From the NCBI GenBank assembly GCA_030427735.1, contig JAUIBP010000003.1:124001-188000 (forward strand): a DNA stretch of 64,000 nucleotides, written 5' to 3'. Position 1 is the stretch's first letter. Each line of letters begins with the position of its first letter. Below are positions 15,407 to 18,861 of this stretch, piece after piece. The notes under the pieces are model-generated. The model made no database searches, had not been told where the DNA came from, and saw nothing but the letters and a program-made list of their open reading frames with translations. Made by a program: the position numbers and the translations under genes. Source of the DNA: Bacteroidia bacterium. GTDB taxonomy: Bacteria; Bacteroidota; Bacteroidia; Flavobacteriales; Flavobacteriaceae.

Positions 15407-16039
15407 ATGATTGAAGCATTAAAGCAGCACTATGGCTATTTATTTGAAGATGATTTACTTAAAGAAATCAATCAAGTAGGGGTATTTAAAGACATTCCTG
15501 CCGGTTTTTTGCTTATGGATATTGGCGAAACCATTAAATATATGCCTTTATTATTTAGCGGTGCTATTAAAATTTTAAGAGAAGATGCTAAGGGAGACGA
15601 ATTGTTGCTATATTTTATAGAGCAAGGCGACACCTGCACCATGAGTTTTACCTGCTGCTTGGGTAATAAAAAAAGTGAAATACGTGCCATCGCCGAAACC
15701 GATACCAAACTGATAATGGTACCTGTAGAGCACATGCAACTTTGGTTGGGAAAATATAAAAGTTGGCAAAACTTTATATTACTAAGCTATCATGAGCGTA
15801 CATCGGAATTATTGGAAGCTATAGATACTATTGCGTTCTTAAAAATGGACGAACGGCTGTTGAAGTATTTAAAAGATAAAGCCATGGTAAACCACAACGA
15901 TGTTATAAATGTTACTCATTCCGAAATTGCTCAAGATTTGCATACTTCCAGAGTAGTCATTTCAAGACTCTTAAAAAAACTAGAAAATGAAGGTGCCATT
16001 AAATTACAGCGAAACCAAATTCAATTAATGAAATTGTAG
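15407..16039 (+). CDS. Crp/Fnr-family transcriptional regulator with cysteine cluster
   Basis: A 210-residue regulator with an N-terminal cyclic-nucleotide-binding-type beta-roll (residues ~20-115), a long dimer helix and a C-terminal winged helix whose recognition helix lies in HSEIAQDLHTSRVVISRLLKKLE. The cyclic-nucleotide phosphate-binding cassette is not conserved; its place holds GDTCTMSFTCCLGNKKS, with C77, C83 and C84. That argues against cAMP binding and is compatible with a thiol- or redox-responsive switch, although C-rich variants are common in Bacteroidota. It is divergent from GH97 and directly upstream of a sulfur gene cluster that carries matching palindromes, so it is the natural candidate regulator of that cluster. 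The effector is unknown. Confidence 0.88.
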   Translation: MIEALKQHYGYLFEDDLLKEINQVGVFKDIPAGFLLMDIGETIKYMPLLFSGAIKILREDAKGDELLLYFIEQGDTCTMSFTCCLGNKKSEIRAIAETDTKLIMVPVEHMQLWLGKYKSWQNFILLSYHERTSELLEAIDTIAFLKMDERLLKYLKDKAMVNHNDVINVTHSEIAQDLHTSRVVISRLLKKLENEGAIKLQRNQIQLMKL

Positions 16040-16141: not shown

Positions 16142-16155
16142 GTAACCATTGTTAC
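16142..16155. promoter_or_regulatory. GTAAC-N4-GTTAC palindrome, candidate Crp/Fnr-type operator for tauE-like gene
   Basis: A perfect 5-4-5 palindrome (spacer CATT). Its centre is 29.5 bp from the first base of the TACATTTG promoter element, which would put it near -41 from the start of transcription, the class II activator position. The same palindrome with the same spacing precedes the persulfide dioxygenase gene. Confidence 0.65.
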
Positions 16156-16177
16156 CTTATAAAGTGTATGTAATCTT

Positions 16178-16185
16178 TACATTTG
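16178..16185 (+). promoter_or_regulatory. Promoter -7 element TACATTTG
   Basis: Matches TAnnTTTG. There is no TTG element at the usual -33 distance; the palindrome occupies that region, consistent with activator-dependent transcription. The start codon lies 16 bases further on, so the leader is very short. Confidence 0.6.
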
Positions 16186-16200
16186 CCCGAAATTTAAGGT

Positions 16201-17001
16201 ATGGATATTACGCAAGTTGTAGGATATTTAAGTGCATTAATTATTGGTTTGGTTTTAGGACTTACAGGCGGCGGCGGGTCTATACTTACAGTACCCGTAT
16301 TAGTGTATTTATTACATGTTAATCCTATAACGGCTACAGCTTATTCTTTATTTATAGTGGGTTTTACAGCTAGTTTTGGAGCGTATAAAAATTTCCAAAA
16401 GGGCTTAGTCGATTTAAAAATCGCCGCTATTTTTGCTATTCCTGCTTTTAGTATGGTATACATAACGAGAAAGTTAATTATACCTGCTATGCCCGAAAAT
16501 TTACTGCAAATAGGTAATTTGATAATAACTAAAGACATAGCCATTATGGTATTGTTCGCGGTAATGATGGTTGTGGCTTCGCTAACCATGCTTAAACCTA
16601 AAAAAGACATTGATGAAGAACATCATAAAAGAAAATTAAGCAACCTTTTAATTTTTAATCAGGCCATTGTTATTGGGTTTTTCACTGGATTAGTTGGTGC
16701 TGGGGGCGGATTTATAATTATTCCAGCACTTATAATATTAGGAAATTTATCGATGAAAAAGGCCGTAGGTACCTCGTTGTTCATCATTGCGGTTAATTCC
16801 TTAATTGGTTTTGCAGGAGACATTGGCCATACGCAAATCGATTGGATTTTTCTAAGCATATTCACTATGCTATCCGTAGTTGGAATATTAATAGGAAGTT
16901 ATTTGTCGAATAATATTGAAGGAGAAAAACTTAAAAAAGGATTCGGTTGGTTTGTACTTGTTATGGGGGTTTATATTTTAATTAAAGAACTGGTATTGTA
17001 A
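16201..17001 (+). CDS. TauE/SafE-family sulfur-anion exporter (TSUP)
   Basis: A 266-residue inner-membrane protein with about eight helices and the two-fold repeat of the TSUP family, seen as the glycine-rich segments LVLGLTGGGGSILTVPVLVY (residues ~17-36) and FTGLVGAGGGFIIIPAL (~160-176). Family members move sulfite, sulfoacetate or thiosulfate across the membrane. The neighbour downstream makes sulfite from persulfide, so sulfite/thiosulfate export is the likely job, as proposed for TauE in staphylococcal cst operons. Its stop codon lies within the palindrome of the next promoter. Substrate is inferred. Confidence 0.85.
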   Translation: MDITQVVGYLSALIIGLVLGLTGGGGSILTVPVLVYLLHVNPITATAYSLFIVGFTASFGAYKNFQKGLVDLKIAAIFAIPAFSMVYITRKLIIPAMPENLLQIGNLIITKDIAIMVLFAVMMVVASLTMLKPKKDIDEEHHKRKLSNLLIFNQAIVIGFFTGLVGAGGGFIIIPALIILGNLSMKKAVGTSLFIIAVNSLIGFAGDIGHTQIDWIFLSIFTMLSVVGILIGSYLSNNIEGEKLKKGFGWFVLVMGVYILIKELVL

Positions 17002-17011
17002 CCCAAGTTAC
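16998..17011. promoter_or_regulatory. GTAAC-N4-GTTAC palindrome, candidate operator for the persulfide dioxygenase gene
   Basis: A perfect 5-4-5 palindrome with spacer CCAA, overlapping the TauE stop codon. Its centre is 29.5 bp from the first base of TAATTTTG, identical to the arrangement before the TauE gene. Repetition of both site and spacing makes chance unlikely. Confidence 0.7.
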
Positions 17012-17033
17012 GCAATCAATCCAAAAACATTAG

Positions 17034-17041
17034 TAATTTTG
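17034..17041 (+). promoter_or_regulatory. Promoter -7 element TAATTTTG
   Basis: Matches TAnnTTTG; 21 bases before the dioxygenase start codon. Gives that gene its own promoter although it follows the TauE gene by 61 bp. Confidence 0.6.
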
Positions 17042-17062: not shown

Positions 17063-18475
17063 ATGAAAGTAGATCAAATATATACAGGCTGTTTAGCACA
17101 GGGTGCATATTATATAGAAAGCGCGGGTGAAGTTGCTATAATAGATCCGCTACGAGAAGTAGAGCCTTACATAAAAAGAGCAGAAAAAGATGGAGCAACT
17201 ATAAAATATATTTTCGAAACCCATTTTCATGCAGATTTTGTAAGTGGGCACGTAACTTTATCCGAGTTAACAGGTGCTCCAATAATTTATGGGCCGTCGG
17301 CTAAACCTGCTTTCGATGCTGTTATTGCTACAGATGGTCAAGAATTTAAACTTGGTAATGTGCGCATAAAAGTATTGCACACGCCAGGGCATACTATGGA
17401 AAGTGCTACATTTTTATTAAAAGATGAAACAGGAAAAGATTATGCTATTTTTAGTGGAGACACCCTGTTTTTAGGCGACGTAGGCCGTCCGGATTTAGCA
17501 CAAAAAGGCGATATTACCCAAGACGATTTAGCGGGATATTTATTCGATAGTTTACGTGAAAAGATTATGCCATTAGCAGACGATGTTATTGTGTATCCAG
17601 GACATGGTGCTGGTTCGGCATGTGGTAAAAATATGATGAAAGAAACCGTAGACACTTTAGGTAACCAAAAGCAAATGAATTACGCTTTGCGTGCCGATAT
17701 GACCAAAGCAGAATTTGTTAAAGAAGTTACCGATGGTTTAGCGCCACCACCACAGTATTTTCCGTTAAATGTAAAAATGAATAAGGAAGGATACGACAAT
17801 ATAGATACCGTAATCGAAAAAGGTACCAAAGCCTTAAACCCAGAAGCATTCGAAAGTTTGGCGAATAGTGTTGAAGCTTTAGTTTTAGATGTAAGACATC
17901 AAAACGATTTTATTCAGGGACATATTCCACGATCCATTTTTATTGGTCTGGATGGTGGATTTGCACCTTGGGTTGGGGCATTAATTAAAGATGTTAAACA
18001 ACCTATTTTACTGGTAACCGATAAAGGTATGGAAGAAGAAGCCGTAATACGTCTGTCTCGTGTAGGTTTCGATAATACTTTAGGGTATTTAGAAGGTGGT
18101 TTTGAAGCGTGGAAAGATACGGGTAAGACTTACGATACCATTTCATCTATTTCGGCCGAGACGTTTAAATCGCGATTAGAAGACGGTAATCTACAGGTTT
18201 TTGATGTAAGAAAAGATAGCGAGTTTGCTTCGGAGCATATCGAAAATGCTAAAAATGCTTCATTAGAATTTATTAACGATTATTTGTCCGAAATTCCGAA
18301 AGAGGACCCTTTTTATGTGCATTGTGCTGGGGGGTATAGATCGGTAATTGCGGCATCCATTTTAAAGAGTAGAGGCTACCACAATCTTATAGATGTTGCC
18401 GGTGGTATGAAGGCGATACGCGAAGCAGGCATTCCGTTAACCGATTTTATATGTCCTTCTACAATTAAGAAATAA
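17063..18475 (+). CDS. CstB-like persulfide dioxygenase-rhodanese fusion
   Basis: A 470-residue cytosolic enzyme expected to oxidise glutathione-type or low-molecular-weight persulfide to sulfite and pass sulfane sulfur, giving thiosulfate. Residues 1-240 are an ETHE1-like metallo-beta-lactamase domain: THFHADFVSGH (H54, H56, D58, H63), HTPGHT (H110), SGDTLF (D133) and YPGHG (H181); the iron ligands are expected to be H54, H110 and D133. Residues ~265-355 form a rhodanese fold whose active loop reads VTDKG, with D320 in place of cysteine, so it is inactive. Residues ~365-465 form a second rhodanese with C421 in HCAGGYRS. This order (dioxygenase, pseudo-rhodanese, rhodanese) is that of Staphylococcus CstB. 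Confidence 0.92.
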   Translation: MKVDQIYTGCLAQGAYYIESAGEVAIIDPLREVEPYIKRAEKDGATIKYIFETHFHADFVSGHVTLSELTGAPIIYGPSAKPAFDAVIATDGQEFKLGNVRIKVLHTPGHTMESATFLLKDETGKDYAIFSGDTLFLGDVGRPDLAQKGDITQDDLAGYLFDSLREKIMPLADDVIVYPGHGAGSACGKNMMKETVDTLGNQKQMNYALRADMTKAEFVKEVTDGLAPPPQYFPLNVKMNKEGYDNIDTVIEKGTKALNPEAFESLANSVEALVLDVRHQNDFIQGHIPRSIFIGLDGGFAPWVGALIKDVKQPILLVTDKGMEEEAVIRLSRVGFDNTLGYLEGGFEAWKDTGKTYDTISSISAETFKSRLEDGNLQVFDVRKDSEFASEHIENAKNASLEFINDYLSEIPKEDPFYVHCAGGYRSVIAASILKSRGYHNLIDVAGGMKAIREAGIPLTDFICPSTIKK

Positions 18476-18564: not shown

Positions 18565-18861
18565 ATGAGTCGTTTTTCAGAACTTATTGCACAAGATAAA
18601 CCAGTTTTAGTCGATTTTTTCGCAGACTGGTGTGGCCCTTGTAAAGTTATGAGTCCGATTTTAAAAGAACTAAAAGACACATTAGGCGATCGGATTTCAA
18701 TTTTAAAAATAGATGTCGATAAAAATCAAACATTGGCATCAAAATTGCAAGTTAAAGGTGTACCCACTTTAATTTTGTATAAATCTGGAAATCAAGTTTG
18801 GAGACAATCGGGAGTAGTTCAAAAAAACGATCTGCTTCACATTATAGAACATAGTAATTAG
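18565..18861 (+). CDS. Thioredoxin
   Basis: A 98-residue cytosolic thioredoxin with the classic WCGPCK active site at residues 22-27 (FFADWCGPCKVM) and the cis-proline in VKGVPTLILY. Slightly shorter than E. coli TrxA. It reduces protein disulfides and can also reduce persulfides, which suits its position right after the persulfide dioxygenase. It has its own promoter match and is followed by a terminator, so it may be monocistronic. The main housekeeping thioredoxin may lie elsewhere. Confidence 0.93.
   Translation: MSRFSELIAQDKPVLVDFFADWCGPCKVMSPILKELKDTLGDRISILKIDVDKNQTLASKLQVKGVPTLILYKSGNQVWRQSGVVQKNDLLHIIEHSN

Follow-up and report, generated by a model that had tools for sequence, protein, structure and literature searches.

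A Crp/Fnr-type protein as the probable activator of sulfide and persulfide detoxification genes in Flavobacteriaceae

The Crp/Fnr-type protein encoded at positions 15407-16039 of the window, i.e. the whole 64,000-nucleotide stretch of DNA analysed here, probably commands a sulfide- and persulfide-detoxification regulon as a local activator acting through class II sites. This proposal draws on features that are read from sequence, namely the sites, their spacing and conservation, their co-occurrence with the regulator, the match between a residue of its recognition helix and an operator base, and gene content. In the proposed mechanism, a dimer of the regulator would bind TGTAAC-N4-GTTACA at about -41, which is the class II position, and would recruit RNA polymerase to TAnnTTTG promoters without a -33 element. 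This would turn on tauE (export of sulfite or thiosulfate) and the gene for a CstB-like persulfide dioxygenase (PDO)-rhodanese and, elsewhere in the source genome, a gene of the thioredoxin family, with the sulfide or persulfide signal perhaps being read by Cys77 and Cys83.

The gene cluster and its operator-promoter units

The genes and control elements concerned are the following:

15407-16039, + strand: Crp/Fnr-type regulator gene, 210 aa (Pfam HTH_Crp_2; recognition helix TSRVVISR)
16142-16155, + strand: operator 1, GTAACCATTGTTAC, upstream of tauE (exact read)
16178-16185, + strand: promoter element TACATTTG, 22 bp after operator 1 (composite search)
16201-17001, + strand: TauE/SafE-type sulfite exporter gene, 266 aa (PF01925, 157.1 bits)
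16998-17011, + strand: operator 2, GTAACCCAAGTTAC, overlapping the tauE stop codon and upstream of the PDO gene
17034-17041, + strand: promoter element TAATTTTG, 22 bp after operator 2 (composite search)
17063-18475, + strand: CstB-like PDO-rhodanese gene, 470 aa (Pfam and PDB relatives)
18565-18861, + strand: thioredoxin gene, 98 aa, next in the cluster (TIGR01068 over its cut-off)

The TauE and CstB-like assignments made in the sequence-only reading held in Pfam and, with regard to the latter, in comparisons with PDB entries 3tp9 (over residues 5-459) and 3r2u (over 4-453). The CstB-like protein, whose enzyme activity is predicted, carries a Lactamase_B domain at 14-181 and then two Rhodanese stretches, i.e. 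the MBL-then-rhodanese order of this type. That a Crp/Fnr-type gene adjoins the sites was likewise borne out, with HTH_Crp_2 over its cut-off. The window cluster showed no SQR gene, and neither the composite search nor a read of the sequence revealed a composite site before the thioredoxin gene. The source bacterium is probably marine.

Both copies of GTAAC-N4-GTTAC are exact, and their centres (16148.5 and 17004.5) lie 29.5 bp before TAnnTTTG elements starting at 16178 and 17034, as had been claimed, so that palindrome and element are separated by 22 bp in each case. The two units had also been called identical, which is true of their layout but not of the letters of N4 and of the spacer. Taken alone, the palindrome was discarded as evidence, since its frequency in the whole genome equals that of the reversed control (6 vs 6); in the window, with up to one mismatch, four copies were found vs 2.0 expected, a number reached by 16 of 100 shuffles. 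The composite of palindrome and TAnnTTTG at a gap of 21-23 bp, in contrast, occurred three times in the source genome and never in the control. When two mismatches were allowed, the composite showed no excess in the source genome (7 vs 9 in the control). The third composite, C13:341018, lies beyond the window, and the gene after it is 70% identical to one with a Thioredoxin_9 domain. Two other genomic palindromes, C4:289030 and C13:198413 (L159 and L161), are situated within coding sequence without the 22-bp layout, as chance predicts.

The absence of a -33 element was confirmed as well: four of the 119 composites have a TTG at a distance of 17-23 bp ahead of TA, vs a mean of 6.2 after shuffling, and at other TAnnTTTG sites upstream of ORFs it was also barely enriched (7/52 vs shuffled 4). 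The base preceding the palindrome is T in 109 of the 119 composites, and the site therefore reads TGTAAC-N4-GTTAC, which is close to the CRP site layout TGTGA-N6-TCACA.

Conservation, co-occurrence and targets

Among the 64 named loci retrieved by the regulator search, mostly titled as Flavobacteriaceae genera, a hand count gave the order regulator-tauE-PDO on one strand in 49, with several of the others broken by contig ends. Conservation upstream of tauE and PDO orthologues had been put forward as a check, and the palindrome is indeed kept there: in the 160 bp of upstream sequence, an exact copy was present for tauE in 43 of 56 loci (13 had none) and for PDO in 31 of 50 (19 had none). The corresponding figure for other ORFs was 12 of 272, and some of these may themselves be true targets. 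With gaps of 0-60 bp allowed between palindrome and TAnnTTTG in the named relatives, the gap was 22 in 60 of 67 cases, 21 in six and 28 in one.

The scan that had been suggested for the palindrome at fixed spacing before TAnnTTTG was extended to 149 Flavobacteriaceae genomes, in which 224 composites faced 4 control matches. A composite was found in 97 of the 116 genomes with a close regulator ortholog (E ≤ 1e-60), leaving 19 with none, and in 3 of the 33 without such an ortholog (10 with a weaker match, 23 with no match); the Fisher p value of 2e-15 is uncorrected for kinship, and the adjacency of regulator and targets contributes to it. That chance palindromes happen to precede unrelated promoters would agree with the chance-level frequency of the palindrome alone, but it is hardly conceivable given the count of composites over the control, the fixed gap and the conserved position.

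Activation rather than repression is what we infer from this layout, as the position of the site, with its 22-bp gap, and the missing -33 element fit class II activation. It is improbable that the regulator binds the same sites as a repressor released by the signal: known persulfide sensors, CstR and SqrR/BigR, are repressors (PMC9774590, PMC8148161), but a fixed 22-bp gap without a -33 element is a class II activator layout, comparable to that of NtcA, whose site GTAN8TAC is placed at about -41.5 in PMC3898017.

The targets of a putative activator were surveyed in 30 loci with 32 of the 224 composites; eight of the 32 genes were run on Pfam (one of them start-trimmed), and the remainder were identified from their resemblance to window proteins or by eye. 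The first genes after the composites encode TauE (8), TolC-like proteins (7), PDO (6), SulP (3) and small proteins (3), together with one each for a triple rhodanese, cytochrome bd subunit I, a YgaP-like membrane protein, a thioredoxin and a porin. Several of these, the TolC-like, porin and small proteins, are non-sulfur targets. According to the review PMC8148161, exposure of a bacterium to 0.2 mM sulfide induces a similar set, comprising PDO, SQR, TauE and cytochrome bd. The regulator family is widespread and appears to switch on sulfide and persulfide disposal genes.

Composites before a TolC-like outer-membrane efflux gene were seen in seven genera (L234, L235, L237, L239, L247, L251 and L260, at about 1560), with one call confirmed on Pfam and the others made by eye, hinting at the export of a sulfur compound or a metal. 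In L240, L245 and L249 (at about 1550-1600), the composite is followed by similar small proteins of approximately 105-120 aa ending in SPPPRL, and a Pfam search with one such protein gave no match.

The regulator family and operator recognition

The regulator belongs to the Crp/Fnr superfamily, with HTH_Crp_2 at 36.9 bits (cut-off 27), cNMP_binding slightly under its cut-off (26.6 vs 27.5) and Crp-family structures as best Foldseek matches to its AlphaFold model (pLDDT 91.7). Agreement with Crp structures was limited to TM-scores of about 0.5-0.6, and the rmsd was high; in the predicted model, this probably comes from domain orientation. Residues S181, R182, V183, V184, S186 and R187 of the helix region are kept in 65/65 alignment rows, and Cys77, Cys83 and Cys84, which occupy the place of the CRP phosphate-binding segment, are present in all 63 rows covering them.

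Assignment to several known types was considered and rejected. FNR is an iron-sulfur oxygen sensor whose N-terminal cysteine cluster holds the iron-sulfur centre; this cluster is absent from the window regulator, which has no cysteines besides those at 77, 83 and 84. The cAMP-binding segment of CRP includes the Glu of GELGLF; the CRP segment GDFIGELGLFEEGQERS aligns to GETCAMSLTCC of the family profile, and the PRK11753 score is 40.8 bits vs a cut-off of 266. NtcA identity was dismissed at 34.8 bits for NCBIfam TIGR03697 (cut-off 244.95). As for the known persulfide-sensor types CstR, SqrR/BigR and FisR, Pfam shows Crp/Fnr domains only, and not those of CsoR, ArsR or sigma-54 activators.

Regulators collected across the class share C-x-[MLIVF]-x3-C, a filter that left out 8 of 189, and carry either SRVV (V-type) or SREV (E-type) in the recognition helix. 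An anchored scan blind to A/G, with up to one mismatch and up to 250 bp downstream, placed a site in 74 of the 129 loci with a V-type regulator (mean of 3.15 after shuffling; gap of 22 in 65/74) and in 23 of the 52 with an E-type one (mean of 0.8 after shuffling; gap of 22 in 22/23). V-type regulators stand beside GTAAC sites and E-type ones mostly beside GTGAC. In particular, the mismatch-free sites, drawn from 155 V-type and 58 E-type regulators and leaving out mismatched sites and loci without a site within 250 bp downstream, divide into 67 AA, 4 mixed and 0 GG for V-type vs 4 AA, 9 mixed and 12 GG for E-type, the four E-type loci with AA sites belonging to two genera. This is the Val/Glu specificity code of Crp/Fnr proteins, in which Val instead of Glu goes with A/T in place of G/C at the operator base concerned. 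Mutant work has reportedly been carried out on Glu181 of E. coli CRP. A switch of the same kind is known for CprK and FNR, with Val192 of CprK occupying the position of FNR Glu209 and going with a pyrimidine at the corresponding base (PMC2610375), and R180, E181 and R185 of CAP are treated in PMC10127613.

In the tree, about six helix changes were counted, with two well-supported independent pairs, too few to decide the link between helix and operator. Of 12 further genomes sampled around G173, two yielded matches. Genome G343 holds both paralogs, the E copy beside GTGACTATTGTCAC and the V copy beside GTAACAAAGGTTAC. No GTRA-N6-TYAC site was found directly downstream of the regulator in seven V-type loci (L164-L170). 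In L106, a V-type regulator with a GTAAC site downstream also has a GTGATAATTGTCAC site upstream, 710 bp before its stop and in the 22-bp layout; this regulator may be under the control of another one.

The correspondence of V/E with GTAAC/GTGAC is, as far as sequence comparison goes, the strongest sign that the neighbouring regulator binds the sites, as the sequence-only reading had supposed; together with the conservation upstream of tauE and PDO and the co-occurrence, it makes binding of both window sites by the adjacently encoded protein very likely. That another transcription factor binds the palindromes, with the adjacent Crp/Fnr gene as a bystander, is very improbable. Binding by the neighbour is a prediction, and some V-type regulators have no nearby site, which would suit a different binder, but helix residue and operator base change jointly, both versions exist in one genome, and site and regulator co-occur as described above. 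Furthermore, besides the regulator, a single Crp/Fnr protein of the source genome passes the Pfam cut-off; its helix reads TESIIR, and no second one with SRVV is encoded.

Relatives, the signal and significance

Homologs were also found on plasmids, in Alphaproteobacteria and one Gammaproteobacterium. Among 16 plasmid loci annotated after being picked from lists of plasmid-record matches, 11 have clear sulfur-gene neighbours, two DUF2892 only (L317 and L320) and three none that are clear (L314, L318 and L319). In all 11 proteobacterial loci (L311-L313, L317 and L320-L326), the regulator has two cysteines six residues apart and an AREV helix, and GTRA-N5-TYAC precedes a gene for DUF2892, YeeE or MBL; the sites of L322, L323 and L325 were read by eye, and the loci are without a shuffle control. 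YeeE, MBL, sulfurtransferase or SulP genes are the neighbours in nine of these loci, while those of Thiothrix and Azospirillum have DUF2892 only. Chelativorans and Paracoccus sediminicola carry a further site, which precedes a divergently oriented peroxiredoxin gene at the head of a cluster containing cydAB. Within the Bacteroidota, the E-type representative Pontibacter has GTGA-N6-TCAC before tauE, PDO and rhodanese genes. A sulfur context was absent in two Firmicutes examined and in Persicobacter. The proteobacterial operators are of the GTGAC type with an inner spacer of 3 bp vs 4, and stand beside plasmid-borne DUF2892-YeeE-MBL-SulP modules.

With regard to the signal, among 103 regulators with 39-80% identity to the window protein, Cys77 is present throughout and Cys83 in at least 90%. 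Cys77 lies at the start of helix 78-85 and Cys83 inside it; this segment, aligned with the cyclic-nucleotide pocket of CRP, is also that of lowest confidence in the AlphaFold model. C-x5-C is carried as well by structure 3dv8, the best PDB sequence match of the regulator family. We hypothesize that persulfide chemistry takes place on Cys77 and Cys83. The L119 and L137 regulators, encoded in loci with PDO genes, are without Cys83/84, which counts against sensing by a cysteine pair. Both have N-terminal cysteines instead (ITC and EIC), possibly a substitute partner for Cys77.

A less probable alternative, which still deserves some weight, keeps regulator, sites and genes unchanged and replaces persulfide on Cys77/Cys83 by a heme- or redox-based signal such as oxygen, NO or heme. 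PgRsp of Porphyromonas gingivalis, a Bacteroidota Crp/Fnr protein outside the known families with Cys76-x-Met78, was modelled on 3DV8, the same structure as above, and is described as a heme-binding redox sensor, with a spectrum unaltered by single Ala changes of Cys76, Met78 or His85 (PMC6955866). However, PgRsp is likened to the window regulator by description alone, its membership in the family being a guess, and the neighbours and targets of the family are mainly sulfide and persulfide genes in both Bacteroidota and Proteobacteria.

Returning to the proposed persulfide-responsive activator, parts of it have counterparts in described systems. The FisR-controlled sqr-pdo-tauE operon of Acinetobacter baumannii also places PDO and TauE for sulfide detoxification under an activator (PMC7315123), but FisR is sigma-54-dependent, in contrast to the Crp/Fnr protein of the window cluster, and in the cst operon of Staphylococcus aureus CstR is a CsoR-type repressor. 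NtcA of cyanobacteria shares the Crp family, the R-V of the recognition helix and a site that, like that of the window, reads GTA-N8-TAC, yet it reads 2-oxoglutarate for nitrogen control, and the window regulator falls far under the NtcA model cut-off. CprK of Desulfitobacterium resembles the present case in the Val that replaces Glu209 of FNR, linked to T/C at the matching base, in the 4-nt spacer between 5-bp halves and in redox-sensitive cysteines (PMC2610375), but differs in reading chlorinated phenols, in its site TTAAT-N4-ATTAA and in a disulfide between Cys11 and Cys200 of the two subunits. Taken one by one, the components are of kinds already known, be it Crp/Fnr activators, class II sites, the target genes or the V/E switch; a limited search of the open-access literature found no cysteine-pair Crp/Fnr regulator in charge of sulfide detoxification genes together with this operator-promoter unit.

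The evidence leaves evenly balanced, in our judgement, a broader proposal. According to it, a cross-phylum Crp/Fnr subfamily of Bacteroidota and Proteobacteria would represent a new class of thiol-based persulfide sensor, in which C-x5-C replaces the cyclic-nucleotide pocket, and would command sulfide-resistant respiration (cytochrome bd) as well as the detoxification of sulfide. Its operators would have switched several times between GTAAC and GTGAC via one helix residue, by which two paralogs would be kept apart in at least one genome. The V/E pairs offer a natural experiment on the evolution of Crp/Fnr operators. If the cysteine pair senses persulfide, one more protein fold would join the known persulfide sensors, and the control of sulfide disposal would be explained in many flavobacteria and, with the module on plasmids, in some Alphaproteobacteria. 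The Bacteroidota gain a candidate for the master regulator of sulfide and persulfide stress, recognizable by an operator-promoter signature that is exact and can be searched for.
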